From a virus, in IMG/VR virus record IMGVR_UViG_3300023192_001506, positions 1 to 33,393 of that record: 33,393 nt of DNA. One strand, given 5' to 3'. Under the pieces are notes generated by a model. It was not told the DNA's origin and searched no databases. It was given only the letters and a program-made list of their open reading frames with translations. Position 1 is the stretch's first letter; each line of letters opens with the position of its first letter. Shown piece by piece: positions 4,145 to 30,748 of this stretch. A program made the position numbers and the translations under genes.

Positions 4145-4807
4145 ATGAAAAGTTATTATAACGATTTTTATCAAAATTTTGGACGAATCATGCATGATTT
4201 ACGAGAACAACAAACACAAGATATTACCGAGTATATTGAGAATGGATTGTCTGAAGATGAAATAATGCGTATTACTGATATGGACAGACGGAGTATTCGT
4301 GATATTATATTGAAAATTAAAATAGACGAAAACCTGCAATTAAACGAAAGGTTTTGGTTTGATGTAAATATTAAAGGATGGGATTCTTTTAAGATGTATG
4401 CATCTGATGAAGATAAACTTAAAAAAGATGTTCAGAAATCATTAAAAAACCCAAAAGATTTGATATCTATTGAAAAAGTAAAAACACCTGAAAACCAGGA
4501 TGAAAAGGTTGTATTAACACCAAAAGAAACACAGATTAATGAAATGCAAGCTTTTATGCAACCATTGTTTAAAATTTCCAAAACTCAAAAGGGTACTCTT
4601 GAATTTAAAGGTGGTAAACTTACTCTTGATAGTAAATCTGCACAAATTATTTTAGATATTATTGACCACGAACAAAAATGGCCTCAATACCAACTTCGTG
4701 ATGCAATACAGAATCCAAAAAGATATACAACAAAAGATGTAGTTAAGTTAGTTAAACTTGCTCAAAAAGCACAGGGTGATAAGAGACCACTAACACAAAT
4801 GAAGTAA
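4145..4807 (+). CDS. Unknown protein with helix-turn-helix-like segment and an FW-type domain
   Basis: 220 residues. The leader ends in LRE (19-21). Residues about 31-58 (NGLSEDEIMRITDMDRRSIR) look like a helix-turn-helix. QLNE at 65-68 then marks a junction before RFWFDVNIKGW (69-79), which opens a roughly 45-residue domain also found twice in the 6079-7710 product: aromatic FW, a V-x-I strand, an Ala, a basic helix with K-x(3)-K-x-L-K, and a final L-x-IEKV. A C-terminal helical region with a Lys-rich end follows. The gene follows the adenylyltransferase-like gene after a 33-base gap that holds GATAAATA (4112-4119), one base off the late promoter consensus. No enzyme motif is visible. Possibly a processed internal virion protein. 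Confidence 0.55.
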   Translation: MKSYYNDFYQNFGRIMHDLREQQTQDITEYIENGLSEDEIMRITDMDRRSIRDIILKIKIDENLQLNERFWFDVNIKGWDSFKMYASDEDKLKKDVQKSLKNPKDLISIEKVKTPENQDEKVVLTPKETQINEMQAFMQPLFKISKTQKGTLEFKGGKLTLDSKSAQIILDIIDHEQKWPQYQLRDAIQNPKRYTTKDVVKLVKLAQKAQGDKRPLTQMK

Positions 4808-5909: not shown

Positions 5910-6074
5910 ATGGGAAAAAAATATTTAGATACAAAAAAAGGCTCTATAGAAGATGCTGTTTTGAATGTTTGGAAAAAAATATCTGGTATGAAAGTCGAAG
6001 AAGATAAAAAAGATATTAAATCCAAAGAAAATGAAAAGCAAAAAGTTCTTAAAGAGATATACGGAGAGGAATAG
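5910..6074 (+). CDS. Small protein with KGSxEDAVxxxW motif
   Basis: A 54-residue protein starting one base after the preceding stop. Its N-terminus, KKYLDTKKGSIEDAVLNVW, matches the N-terminus of the next gene product (DYFKPIEKGSVEDAVQKIW), so the two share a short helical module. The remainder is Lys/Glu-rich and probably disordered or coiled. The shared motif, the tight packing in the operon and the normal codon use support it as a real gene. It may be a truncated or split relative of the larger neighbour. Function unknown. Confidence 0.6.
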   Translation: MGKKYLDTKKGSIEDAVLNVWKKISGMKVEEDKKDIKSKENEKQKVLKEIYGEE

Positions 6075-6078
6075 AACA

Positions 6079-7710
6079 ATGAATCATATGAAAAATAACA
6101 ATGATTATTTTAAACCAATAGAAAAGGGCTCTGTAGAAGATGCAGTTCAAAAGATTTGGAATAAAGAAGTCGAACTTAATGAAAGGATTAGGGTTGATAA
6201 GAGAACTAAAAGTGTTACTCTTGATGTAAAAAAATCAGAATCAGGAGAGTTGCAAAGATATCTCAATTCACAACGGTCAAAGGAAAAATTTGAATGGAAT
6301 TCTACAAAAGATGGTAAAATAATAATATCACCTAAAGATGCTGGTAGAGCAACATTTCCCAAATTTATGATAGCTTTTATGAATGCGAAAAAAACAGGAA
6401 AGTTTGGGTCTGTAAAAATTGTGTCTACAGATGAAGGAGTAGAATTTGATGAGGTTTATACTGACTATAAACAACTTGCGAAAGACATCCAAAAAGAATA
6501 TCAAAAAAAATTGAGGTCAAAGAAATTTATTACTACAAATGATATTGATGATTATGTATCTACTAATGCAGACAGTCCACATAAAGTTGAGACAGATGAG
6601 ATTATTAAAGCACTTAAAAAACTTCGTGTAACCGTTACTGGAAAATTTCCACACAGAAGGGAAGAAGTAGAACTTGATGAGGCTTTTTGGAAAGTGAATA
6701 TTCCAGATATGCCACCTATATTTATAGAGGCAGGTTCTGCAGGAGTGATTAAAGCAAATCTGAGAAAGACATTGAAAGGTGATGCGTTTAAAGAACTTAA
6801 AATTGAGAAAGTATCAAGAAGTGATATGATTAAGAAATATCGTGAAATGGCAAAAGGTGATAGCGAATCTTCAGAAAGTACTGTACTGGAAGAAGTAGAA
6901 CTTGATGAGGCTTTTTGGAAAGTGAGTATTCCAGATATGCCACCTATATTTATAGAGGCAGGTTCTGCAGGAGTAATTAAAGCAAATCTGAGAAAGAAAT
7001 TGAAAGGTGATGCATTTAAAGAACTTAAAATTGAGAAAGTATCAAGAAGTGAGATGATTAAAAAATATCGTGAAATGGCAAAAGGTGATAGCGGTGGAGA
7101 AGAATCTTCAGAAAGTACTGTACTGGAAGAAGTAGAACTTGATGAAAATTTTAGAACACTTGCTACTAAGGGTATGGGTACAGAAACAAAGGCAAATGCT
7201 AAAGTAGGACAGGAATTGGATTTTTATGAACCTAAAAAAGGTGATAAGTTTTTGGGTAAAATTATAAAGACAAAGTATGGACCAGCTGGATTTTATCAGA
7301 TATTGGGTTTAGATAGACAAGTTAAAGGCAAAGTATTTACATTTAAATATTATGATAAAGACAAAGCAAAAAATCTTCTTAAAAACGAGAGCAAAAAACT
7401 TGTTGAAAGGGGAACTTCGCCTTCAAGGTATATTGAGATTTTAAATAGACTCCGAGAAGAAACAGAATATCAAAAGTTTTTTATGTCTGCACTTAAAAAG
7501 TTTGGTGTAAAAAGTCCTGCTGAACTTGATGGTGAGAAAGAAAAGAAATTTTATGATTATGTAGATAAGAATTGGAAGGCCAAAAATGAACCAAAAGAAG
7601 TTGGTGAAAAACATAAACCCAAACAAAATGGTAAGACATTGACGGGGAAACCTAAAGATAAGATTGATGTAAATCCACAAACTTCTGATATTAGAGCTGG
7701 CAAGTATTAA
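6079..7710 (+). CDS. Modular late protein with duplicated FW domain and ELDE junctions
   Basis: 543 residues from the ATG at 6079, chosen because GGAGAGGA lies 8 bases upstream; in-frame codons run back to 6031 but would overlap the previous gene. Order of parts: KGSVEDAVQKIW helix (16-27); ELNE (32-35); a first domain to about 190; ELDE (198-201) and an FW domain; ELDE (274-277) and a near-identical FW domain; ELDE (353-356) and a last domain containing a KVGQELDFYEPKKGDKF segment; then a charged tail rich in Pro, Lys and Gly. Every domain is preceded by E-L-[DN]-E, which fits [L/I]-x-E processing. The two FW copies are about 95 percent alike and arose by a recent in-frame duplication. No enzymatic motif is recognised. 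Possibly a capsid-internal polyprotein. Confidence 0.6.
   Translation: MNHMKNNNDYFKPIEKGSVEDAVQKIWNKEVELNERIRVDKRTKSVTLDVKKSESGELQRYLNSQRSKEKFEWNSTKDGKIIISPKDAGRATFPKFMIAFMNAKKTGKFGSVKIVSTDEGVEFDEVYTDYKQLAKDIQKEYQKKLRSKKFITTNDIDDYVSTNADSPHKVETDEIIKALKKLRVTVTGKFPHRREEVELDEAFWKVNIPDMPPIFIEAGSAGVIKANLRKTLKGDAFKELKIEKVSRSDMIKKYREMAKGDSESSESTVLEEVELDEAFWKVSIPDMPPIFIEAGSAGVIKANLRKKLKGDAFKELKIEKVSRSEMIKKYREMAKGDSGGEESSESTVLEEVELDENFRTLATKGMGTETKANAKVGQELDFYEPKKGDKFLGKIIKTKYGPAGFYQILGLDRQVKGKVFTFKYYDKDKAKNLLKNESKKLVERGTSPSRYIEILNRLREETEYQKFFMSALKKFGVKSPAELDGEKEKKFYDYVDKNWKAKNEPKEVGEKHKPKQNGKTLTGKPKDKIDVNPQTSDIRAGKY
6661..7146 (+). repeat. In-frame tandem duplication within the modular late gene
   Basis: Copy 1 starts at 6661 and copy 2 at 6889 (228 bases, 76 codons). 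A partial third start follows at 7126, 237 bases later, after a 9-base insertion. All three begin GAAGAAGTAGAACTTGATGA. The copies differ by only a few substitutions, so the duplication is recent or kept uniform by recombination. Confidence 0.9.
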
Positions 7711-8272: not shown

Positions 8273-8280
8273 TATAAATA
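8273..8280 (+). promoter_or_regulatory. T4-type late promoter TATAAATA
   Basis: An exact match to the T4 late -10 consensus, located 31 bases before the ATG of the abundant-looking structural gene at 8312, with a strong AAGGAG site in between. Confidence 0.8.
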
Positions 8281-27888: not shown

Positions 27889-28602
27889 ATGGCGACACAA
27901 AAGAAAGTAAAAGAAATTACAGATTCTCAATTGGTTAATATAAAACCAGTTACGGATAATCAAAAAGTAGCATTTGATGCATTTAAAAAAGGACAAAATC
28001 TTTTTCAATATGGTGCTGCTGGAACAGGAAAAACTTTTGTTGCATTATATCTTGCACTTAAAGATGTTCTGGATTTAAAAAGTCCATATCATAGAGTATG
28101 TCTTGTTCGTTCATTAATGCCAACAAGAGATATAGAATCTGTTTCTGGTGATGAAGAAGATAAAACACTTTTATATCAAACGGTATATCAAAATATGGTG
28201 CAGTTTATGTTTGAACAACCAAATGAAGTTGCATTTAGTTCGTTGTATGATAGATTGAAAACACAACAAACTTTATATTTTCTTTCAACTTCTTTTCTTC
28301 GAGGATTAACTTTTGATAATTCTATTATTATTGTAGATGAATCTCAAAATTTAAATTTTCATGAATTAGATACTATTATTACAAGAGTTGGTCAAGATAG
28401 TAAAATAATTTTCTGTGGTGATATAGACCAAACTGATTTAGTTAAGACACGAGAGAAAAATGCTATTTTAGATTTTACTAGAATTCTTGAACAAATGGAA
28501 GAATTTACATTAATTGAATATAACCTCGGTGATATAGTTCGTTCAGGATTTGTTAGAAATTATTTGATTAATAAAATTAAATTAGGACTTGTTGGTGGTT
28601 GA
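27889..28602 (+). CDS. phoH: PhoH-like ATPase
   Basis: 237 residues. GAAGTGKT (42-49) is Walker A and IIIVDESQN (146-154) Walker B with D150 and E151; IIFCGDIDQTDL near residue 175-186 matches the conserved sensor strand of PhoH. PhoH proteins are P-loop ATPases of the superfamily 1 helicase type, very common in marine phages. The cellular role, phosphate-stress linked in bacteria and possibly RNA-related, remains unsettled. GAGGG lies 10 bases before the ATG. There is a terminator just upstream, so either read-through or an unseen promoter drives it. The neighbouring nuclease gene follows after 19 bases. Confidence 0.9.
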   Translation: MATQKKVKEITDSQLVNIKPVTDNQKVAFDAFKKGQNLFQYGAAGTGKTFVALYLALKDVLDLKSPYHRVCLVRSLMPTRDIESVSGDEEDKTLLYQTVYQNMVQFMFEQPNEVAFSSLYDRLKTQQTLYFLSTSFLRGLTFDNSIIIVDESQNLNFHELDTIITRVGQDSKIIFCGDIDQTDLVKTREKNAILDFTRILEQMEEFTLIEYNLGDIVRSGFVRNYLINKIKLGLVGG

Positions 28603-28621
28603 TAACGAAAAAATATATATT

Positions 28622-29335
28622 ATGAATAAATTATATGAATTTAAAAGAGAAATAAAATATGTTCCAGAAATTTCAACAAAGAATGTAGATAGAAAACGAT
28701 ATTATATAACTCCAGAAGGAATTCTTTATCCGTCTATAACGACAGTTTTATCCAATAGAAAAAAAGAAGGATTATTTGAATGGCGACAACGAGTTGGAGA
28801 AGATGTTGCGAATCATATTGCTAGAACTGCAGCTAGTCGTGGTTCTGCTGTTCATAAAATGTGTGAAGATTATTTGATGAACCAACATATTTATAATTCA
28901 ACCGATTTTGCAAAACATTCACAAAGAAATTTTCTTGGATATTGTTTATTTAATAGATTAAAAGACCAAGTATTAAAAAATATTGATAACATATATGCAC
29001 AGGAAACTTCATTATGGTCAGATAAATTAATGGTTGCTGGTAGGGTGGATTGTGTTGCGAAATACTATGGAATACCTACTGTAATTGATTTTAAGACATC
29101 AAGAAGTGAACGAAATGATGAATGGAATGAAAATTATTACATACAAGCAACTGCATATTCTGAGATGTTTGAAGAAAGAACTGGAATAAGTATAGACCAG
29201 ATTGCGATTTTGGTTGTAACTGAAGATGGAACTGTTCAAGAATTTGTTAAAGATAAAAAAGATTATCTACACCTACTTGAAGAATCTTTAAAGATTTTTA
29301 CTCAAGAAGATAATATGCAAGGCCTTAATACATAA
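28622..29335 (+). CDS. PD-(D/E)XK (RecB/Cas4-like) exonuclease
   Basis: 237 residues from the ATG at 28622; the frame runs back to 28589 inside phoH but the later start gives the usual MNKLYEFK-type N-terminus. Motifs in order: H78 in GSAVHKMCEDYL, E128 in YAQETSLW, D143 in AGRVDCVA, VIDFKTS (154-160) with D156 and K158, and QATAY (175-179) with Q175 and Y179. This is the complete RecB-type nuclease signature. T4-like marine phages carry this gene near phoH. It probably resects DNA ends during recombination-dependent replication or degrades host DNA. The tRNA gene begins four bases after its stop. Confidence 0.85.
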   Translation: MNKLYEFKREIKYVPEISTKNVDRKRYYITPEGILYPSITTVLSNRKKEGLFEWRQRVGEDVANHIARTAASRGSAVHKMCEDYLMNQHIYNSTDFAKHSQRNFLGYCLFNRLKDQVLKNIDNIYAQETSLWSDKLMVAGRVDCVAKYYGIPTVIDFKTSRSERNDEWNENYYIQATAYSEMFEERTGISIDQIAILVVTEDGTVQEFVKDKKDYLHLLEESLKIFTQEDNMQGLNT

Positions 29336-29338
29336 CGA

Positions 29339-29411
29339 GGGGCTATAGGCTAATCTGGGAAACCATTTCTCTTGCACAGAAAAATTACGGGTTCAAATCC
29401 CGTTAGCTCCA
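29339..29411 (+). tRNA. tRNA-Ala, anticodon UGC
   Basis: Acceptor GGGGCTA (29339-29345) pairs with TAGCTCC (29404-29410), including the G3-U70 wobble (29341 with 29408) that identifies tRNA-Ala. Anticodon stem TTTCT/AGAAA with loop CTTGCAC gives TGC at 29373-29375. T arm ACGGG, TTCAAAT, CCCGT. Both ends resemble bacterial tRNA-Ala(UGC). The D stem has one mismatch (C-A) and CCA is not encoded. The variable region has only four bases. Confidence 0.88.
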
Positions 29412-29414
29412 CAC

Positions 29415-29443
29415 TTGACAAATTATTTTTTTTATGTCATACT
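29415..29443 (+). promoter_or_regulatory. Sigma70-like early promoter of the tmRNA gene
   Basis: TTGACA (29415-29420), 17 bases, CATACT (29438-29443, 4 of 6). The -35 is followed by AAT as in the other early promoters; it begins three bases after the tRNA-Ala discriminator base. Confidence 0.6.
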
Positions 29444-29451
29444 TATAAATA
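29444..29451 (+). promoter_or_regulatory. T4-type late promoter of the tmRNA gene
   Basis: Exact TATAAATA adjoining the early -10 box, which would allow expression in both phases. Confidence 0.6.
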
Positions 29452-29452
29452 A

Positions 29453-29660
29453 CCAAGTAATCCGTTAAGTAGGATTGTAAGACGGAGATTCGATTTCTCC
29501 CGCCTCCATTGATTAATAACGATATGAGGGGGCGCCATGGATTCGATTGCAATACGAAAGGGTTATGGAAAAAACAACTGATAACTTTGATTATCAACTA
29601 GCCGCTTAAAAAAAAGTGGTGGGAGTTTGGTGGTTTTCTTAGCAACAGAAAAACCACCGC
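29453..29660 (+). ncRNA. ssrA: Circularly permuted (two-piece type) tmRNA
   Basis: The gene order is acceptor piece, intervening segment, coding piece. Acceptor piece: GAC then T arm GGAGA-TTCGATT-TCTCC (29484-29500), CGCCTCC (29501-29507) and discriminator A (29508). A 19-base spacer (29509-29527) follows. The coding piece starts GGGGGCG (29528-29534), which pairs with the acceptor strand over 7 bp including the G3-U70 Ala identity pair. GGATTCGA (29539-29546) is the invariant D-loop analogue. TTGCAAT (29547-29553) pairs with ATTGTAA (29474-29480) as helix P2. The tag frame ends DNFDYQLAA then TAA (29607-29609). A 9-bp hairpin (29629-29658) follows. A tmRNA rescues stalled ribosomes and tags the product for proteolysis. 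The outer ends are approximate. Pseudoknot PK1 is not evident, as only about 20 bases separate P2 from the tag. Confidence 0.92.
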
Positions 29661-29678: not shown

Positions 29679-29930
29679 ATGCGAGTGAATATTATGTTAG
29701 AGTCAACAATGTCATTTAAAACACAAAGAACATTCGAATTAGAAATAGAACAGATTGTTAAAAATTATGAAATGTCGCATATGCAGGCGGTGTTACATTA
29801 TTGTGAGATGAATGATATTGACCCATCATCAATTAGTCGATTGATATCTAAAACATTAAAAGAAAAGATAGAATTAGATGCGAGAGATTTAAATTTCTTT
29901 CCAAAGGCAGGGAAACTTCCTGATTTATAA
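29679..29930 (+). CDS. 33: Late transcription co-activator (T4 gp33-like)
   Basis: 83 residues; the ATG at 29694 (MLESTMSF) is an equally likely start. IEQIVKNYEMSHMQAVLHYCEMNDID (23-48) and SSISRLISKTLKEKIELDARDLNFFPK are the diagnostic core of gp33, which bridges the host RNA polymerase flap and the sliding clamp to activate late promoters. The C-terminal acidic/hydrophobic end that binds the clamp in T4 is represented by AGKLPDL. The presence of this gene agrees with the TATAAATA promoters here. The late sigma factor gp55 is not in this window. It follows the tmRNA and precedes gp59 by four bases. Confidence 0.85.
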   Translation: MRVNIMLESTMSFKTQRTFELEIEQIVKNYEMSHMQAVLHYCEMNDIDPSSISRLISKTLKEKIELDARDLNFFPKAGKLPDL

Positions 29931-30563: not shown

Positions 30564-30740
30564 ATGAATAAGATAAAAAAGTTATCGGAAAATGAGTGGT
30601 TATTGACATATACTTTAACTAATAATATCAATAAAACTAAGGAAGTACATGTTAGTTTTGATGTATCTAATATGAATCAAATGGGTATCTGGAATCTTTC
30701 AGATGAGAATTTTCGAGACTTGACAAATGCTAAGAAATAA
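30564..30740 (+). CDS. Small protein between gp59 and gp32, unknown
   Basis: 58 residues with GGGAGG just before the ATG. Opens MNKIKKLSENEWLLTYTLTN, then strands KEVHVSFDVSN and a NLSDENFRDL helix: a small alpha/beta protein. Its last 21 bases carry the -35 box of the gp32 promoter. The position between 59 and 32 is conserved in several T4-like genomes for small open frames, but I do not recognise this one. Confidence 0.6.
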   Translation: MNKIKKLSENEWLLTYTLTNNINKTKEVHVSFDVSNMNQMGIWNLSDENFRDLTNAKK

Positions 30741-30748
30741 AGTATAAT
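30720..30748 (+). promoter_or_regulatory. Consensus sigma70-like promoter of gene 32
   Basis: TTGACA (30720-30725), 17 bases, TATAAT (30743-30748). The roughly 65-base leader to the gp32 ATG ends in AAGGAGAAACGAT and could hold translational control, as in T4. Confidence 0.85.

Follow-up and report, generated by a model that had tools for sequence, protein, structure and literature searches.

A circularly permuted two-piece tmRNA gene without PK1 in a marine T4-like phage

Two-piece tmRNAs, in which the acceptor part is encoded 5' of the coding part, are an established component of some phage genomes. The OM43 phage Melnitz carries a published example, and a survey of phages found 133 unique tmRNA structures in 402 genomes, of which 53 were two-piece, 50 of these 53 being marine or aquatic (PMC9004378). 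A pseudoknot upstream of the tag, PK1, is typical but not obligatory for two-piece tmRNAs (PMC3985003). In the Melnitz and Mosig records, the tmRNA is annotated between a nuclease gene and the gene for the late-transcription coactivator gp33. The HTVC008M sequence (our locus L003) also holds a permuted tmRNA, at positions 4500-4709, which is absent from the annotated features shown for that record.

Here we analysed a 33,393-nt virus fragment from IMG/VR (IMGVR_UViG_3300023192_001506), the whole of which we refer to as the window. Its genes include relatives of gp33, gp59, gp32, RNase H and PhoH, which mark the phage as T4-like. An initial annotation, made from the letters alone, had proposed that this phage encodes a permuted two-piece tmRNA, and the gene is real: the general Rfam model for permuted tmRNA, RF04321, matches window positions 29456-29609 with 55.2 bits (gathering cut-off 47, E 2.6e-8), and the remaining two sequence variants of the clade described below also exceed the cut-off, with 55-61 bits. 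The acceptor part is encoded 5' of the coding part and joined to it via the acceptor stem and P2. The gene is of a known kind, in a reduced form without PK1. Carriage of a permuted ssrA by a phage, which had been singled out in the annotation, is therefore confirmed for this genome but is not novel, two-piece tmRNAs having been reported in phages already (PMC9004378).

ARAGORN, run on the window, called the upstream tRNA-Ala and missed the tmRNA gene, which means that phage tmRNAs of such reduced type can be overlooked by this program. The alphaproteobacterial model, RF01849 (alpha_tmRNA), with which the annotation had suggested a comparison, did not match the window at its gathering threshold. 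When the threshold was loosened, the best lineage-specific models were the cyanobacterial one for the window (44.6 bits) and L109 and the betaproteobacterial one for L104 (49.6 bits) and L110, with both of these scores below cut-off; RF01849 was outscored and does not appear for the reduced clade in this listing, which hides lower-scoring members of the model clan.

The features of the locus are collected in Table 1. The acceptor piece comprises 52 nt and the coding piece 131 nt, giving a mature RNA of about 183 nt before CCA, which is not encoded. This falls below the 230-400 nt that a review gives as the range of tmRNA sizes (PMC3968760). All elements named in the initial annotation, namely a 7-bp acceptor stem with G3-U70, P2, a TTCGATT T-loop, a D-loop analogue, a tag ending in QLAA and a 19-base spacer, were found where it had placed them. 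Beyond these, we identified a second P2 helix (P2b), helix 5, a putative terminal pseudoknot and promoter motifs. The G3-U70 alanine identity element of the acceptor stem is invariant across all variants. The tag contains a 6-bp hairpin (29579-29584 with 29591-29596) that is largely kept. An alternative hairpin in the acceptor piece, AATCC/GGATT, was rejected, as it is broken in the L109 group, where P2b is kept. The tRNA-Ala directly upstream of the tmRNA has a G3-U70 pair as well.

Table 1. Features of the tmRNA locus (positions are those of the window).
Feature	Position	Strand	Basis
PD-(D/E)XK exonuclease, left syntenic neighbour	28589..29335	+	protein search
tRNA-Ala(TGC), directly upstream of tmRNA	29339..29412	+	ARAGORN, Rfam
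Sigma-70-like promoter TTGACA-17-CATACT, 5' of tmRNA	29415..29443	+	10/12 matches
T4-type late-promoter-like octamer TATAAATA	29444..29451	+	motif; ATAAATA at identical spacing in L109 group
Acceptor piece (3' tRNA half, no encoded CCA)	29457..29508	+	RF04321 match, pairing
P2b strand GTAATCC, partner 29560-29566	29457..29463	+	100% paired cells; one-sided change GU/AU
P2a strand ATTGTAA, partner 29547-29553	29474..29480	+	94% paired cells
T-arm GGAGA-TTCGATT-TCTCC	29484..29500	+	L104 group: 3/5 pairs changed on both sides
Acceptor stem 3' half CGCCTCC (29501-29507) and discriminator A29508	29501..29508	+	invariant
Intervening spacer, 19 nt	29509..29527	+	19 nt throughout clade; sequence varies
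Coding piece	29528..29658	+	RF04321 match, alignment, fold
Acceptor stem 5' half GGGGGCG, 7/7 pairing with CGCCTCC, G3-U70 wobble	29528..29534	+	pairing
D-loop analogue TGGATTCGA	29538..29546	+	sequence, RF04321 match
P2a strand TTGCAAT	29547..29553	+	alignment pairing
P2b strand GGGTTAT; PK1 missing directly 3'	29560..29566	+	alignment pairing
Tag frame TTDNFDYQLAA* (from 29574, homology) or DNFDYQLAA* (from 29580, upstream AYAA motif)	29574..29609	+	alignment
Helix 5 GCCGCTT/AAGTGGT (29601-29607 with 29614-29620), contains stop codon	29601..29620	+	CG/UG/UA at one pair, GU/GC at another
Putative terminal pseudoknot: 9-bp stem 29629-29637/29650-29658 and GUU-AAC 29625-29627/29644-29646	29625..29658	+	pairing; motif also in alpha-type tmRNAs
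gp33 late-transcription coactivator, right syntenic neighbour	29679..29930	+	PF16805 E 4.6e-20; phrog_254

The structure is conserved among relatives of the window. In an alignment of seven distinct sequences, which represent three main sequence variants, 97.8% of the paired cells are standard pairs, compared with 43-67% when the partners were slid by 1-3 columns as a control. Changes on both sides with pairing kept were seen at three T-arm pairs and one helix-5 pair. The acceptor stem is invariant and therefore gives no covariation evidence, and the terminal pseudoknot keeps its position but varies too little to show covariation. In the L109 group, P2a contains a G-G mismatch. Folding by energy alone, which excludes tertiary contacts and SmpB, prefers another structure by about 5 kcal/mol (-55.8 versus -50.4 for the tmRNA-like fold).

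Relatives were collected through the neighbouring nuclease and by pattern scans. A search with the nuclease yielded 80 loci, and those nearest to the window (L101-L107 and L109-L113) hold the reduced tmRNA. Apart from the window, a second pattern scan recovered it from 12 contigs, and a further contig (L205) contains its 3' part. Across the three variants of this clade, the nuclease proteins are 79-100% identical to that of the window; the tRNA-Ala that the other variants have at the same place differs in sequence and, in one of them, in its anticodon. At most other nuclease loci with enough sequence, the exonuclease and gp33 genes flank a full alpha-type tmRNA, so the exonuclease-gp33 locus of these marine myophages commonly holds a tmRNA. 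In two cyanophages of the same family, the nuclease and gp33 genes overlap and RF04321 found no match. The nuclease tree places the reduced clade as the sister group of Melnitz (98/94), inside a set of phages that have the full form; long branches make some placements in this tree unsure. A model built from the reduced clade alone recovers the tmRNAs of many full-form relatives, and a pattern scan of viral contigs returned 96 stretches matching a permuted tmRNA. In three of the nuclease loci, a manA RNA motif (RF01745) lies directly 3' of the phage ssrA (L142 3110-3316, L147 3849-4022 and L151 4138-4344), comparable to the glutamine riboswitch of Melnitz.

These data bear on where the gene came from. 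The initial annotation had proposed capture from the host lineage, for which we found no support as a recent event, since in relatives the place between exonuclease and gp33 is occupied by a full alpha-type tmRNA. A pattern scan of bacterial genome contigs for a source gave three matches only (Treponema, a deltaproteobacterium and a Saprospiraceae MAG), and a blastn search of phage records with the tmRNA region returned no homologue, only 26-base matches at chance level. Given the full alpha-type tmRNA of relatives at this locus, it is simpler to assume that the gene was inherited vertically and then reduced. It is unlikely, though it deserves some weight, that a permuted tmRNA from a different lineage (beta-type, for instance) instead took over the whole gene or its tRNA-like half, which would leave the working of the RNA the same and change only its history. 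The TTCGATT T-loop and the missing CCA, both unlike the alpha-type relatives, would agree with such a replacement, as would the best sub-threshold models; the tRNA-like part fits the beta and cyanobacterial models better than the alpha model, so replacement of this half from another source is conceivable. However, the ranking of models is weak evidence here because the alpha model penalises any ordinary T-loop, and the locus, the terminal pseudoknot and the DNF core of the tag are all shared with alpha-type relatives.

What is unusual about this phage is a clade tmRNA that has neither PK1 nor an encoded CCA. The annotation had already noted that the RNA looks minimised, and the alignment bears this out: between the last base of P2b (29566) and the earliest plausible resume codon (29574) there are 7 nt and no PK1. 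From the 5' end of the acceptor stem in the coding piece to the end of the stop codon we counted 82 nt in the window and 81 in the L109 group, whereas the same segment measures at least 107 nt in other viral permuted tmRNAs with a readable tag, making the reduced clade the shortest in this comparison, from which loci without a readable tag were omitted and script values below 82 nt were discounted as artefacts of false early stops. Loss of PK1 does not exclude function, because E. coli tmRNA in which PK1 was swapped for single-stranded RNA retained efficient tagging in vivo, according to a passage of PMC4236655 that cites this work. The clade thus looks like a natural counterpart of the engineered PK1-less E. 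coli tmRNA, and the need for PK1 becomes testable with a natural RNA.

The tag frame ends in ...DNFDYQLAA with the stop codon TAA at 29607-29609, and ...QLAA* is common to all variants; the L109 group reads ITDNINYQLAA. Insertions and deletions are located 5' of the frame and just past its stop, with none inside. The start of the frame is ambiguous. Alignment with the ANDNF... of relatives gives the reading TTDNFDYQLAA, while the resume-codon rule, which calls for an upstream tetramer AUAA or AUAG (PMC4236655), suggests that the tag could start at GAU and read DNFDYQLAA. The resume codon would accordingly encode Thr or Asp, not the usual Ala. The LAA end is compatible with recognition by ClpX. 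We also considered a small protein gene, an ordinary short ORF that starts with ATG, at this place and rejected it: the in-frame ATG of the window is out of frame in the other variants, and in one variant an in-frame TAA immediately precedes the tag.

The conserved tag also speaks to what an RNA without PK1 may do. We regard it as quite improbable that the RNA is a decoy, entering stalled ribosomes or binding to SmpB and AlaRS, tagging poorly without PK1 and so dampening trans-translation of the host. Such a role would fit the absence of PK1 and has a parallel in the tag-less tmRNA-like RNA of phage DS6A, whose expression in E. coli is reported to inhibit the endogenous tmRNA (PMC11915505), but a pure decoy would have no need of the tag frame, stop codon and helix 5, which are kept here with compensatory and synonymous changes. 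Very improbable indeed is a decaying, non-functional remnant of the full alpha-type tmRNA. The loss of PK1, the encoded CCA and the alpha-type T-loop relative to the neighbours would fit it, but in all three variants the pairs are maintained, with two-sided changes, as are the end of the tag and the terminal pseudoknot.

Two promoter motifs precede the gene. TTGACA is invariant in all variants, and the alignment shows a perfect TTGACA-17-TATAAT in the L109 group. The TATAAATA octamer that follows we take to be a T4-type late motif, from which a transcript would be predicted to start 6 nt downstream, near 29457, the first base of P2b. Of the 8 plus-strand copies of the octamer in the window, 7 lie no more than 120 nt 5' of a gene, against a background of 17.5%; none of the five opposite-strand copies lies within this distance upstream of a gene. 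The tally counts the tmRNA among the genes and was drawn up once the motif had been seen. ATAAATA is not enriched in number in the window. Because plus-strand copies sit upstream of genes, we keep the octamer as a likely promoter rather than pure chance. The plus-strand copies just upstream of genes begin at 8273, 13536, 20182, 25039, 25869, 26796 and 29444. In pelagimyophages, prediction of late promoters was reported to be unsuccessful (PMC7029224). Elsewhere in the window, a perfect sigma-70 consensus (TTGACA-17-TATAAT, 30720-30748) is found 5' of the gp32 gene, and positions 6031-7710 encode a predicted protein with a tandem repeat (FWKVNIPDMPPIF...KYREMAKGD and a near copy).

Gene, anatomy, conservation and synteny are observed, and from them we infer that the gene probably encodes a functional, reduced two-piece tmRNA that acts with host SmpB and goes back to the full alpha-type tmRNA of an ancestral phage. 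The route from transcription start to a role in infection can be proposed as follows. One transcript would arise from the sigma-70-like promoter, the late promoter or both, just upstream, and would be cut at the acceptor ends, probably by RNase P at 29527/29528 and by tRNase Z near 29508. CCA would be added after cutting, because none is encoded. Acceptor stem, P2a and P2b would hold the two pieces together, and AlaRS may charge the RNA via G3-U70. We found no smpB in the window, two other clade contigs, one related contig or the complete records of Melnitz, Mosig and HTVC008M; host SmpB is therefore presumably used and, with EF-Tu, would bring the charged RNA to stalled ribosomes. With a short A-rich strand standing in for PK1, the ribosome would resume on the tag frame and append ...DNFDYQLAA, and ClpXP could then degrade the tagged protein. 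The full alpha-type tmRNA of the phage ancestor would have been inherited at the same locus and then reduced. More tentatively, and with somewhat less confidence than doubt, we propose a naturally PK1-less, tag-encoding tmRNA of this size, kept by a phage clade and working with host SmpB, whose 5' end would be set directly by a late promoter starting at P2b.

Compared with known systems, the RNA shares gene order, acceptor stem, T-arm, P2 and tag with the alphaproteobacterial, betaproteobacterial and cyanobacterial permuted tmRNAs (RF01849, RF01850 and RF01851), but none of these models was seen to reach its cut-off on the reduced clade, which is without PK1. Some plastid tmRNAs reportedly have lost pseudoknots, including upstream of the tag (Gueneau de Novoa and Williams 2004). 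They have pseudoknot loss in common with the reduced clade, but are organellar and not from phages. The ssrA genes of the pelagiphages Mosig and HTVC008M are alike in their exonuclease-ssrA-gp33 locus, permutation and short tags (GEDNFALAA and ANFNEYALAA); unlike the window, they encode CCA, and their coding piece, counted up to and including the stop codon, measures 108 rather than 82 nt, with enough room for PK1. The ssrA of the Methylophilales phage Melnitz (MZ577096), sister in the nuclease tree, is also permuted and two-piece and located between a PD-(D/E)XK nuclease and gp33. It differs from the window in being a full alpha form (RF01849, 106.7 bits) with an encoded CCA, an alpha-type T-loop and a 145-nt spacer, and in its tag, ANDNYVPVDYALAA, and the glutamine riboswitch 3' of the gene; the window has none of these features. 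Phage-borne two-piece tmRNAs were thus already known, and what is new here is the reduced variant without PK1.
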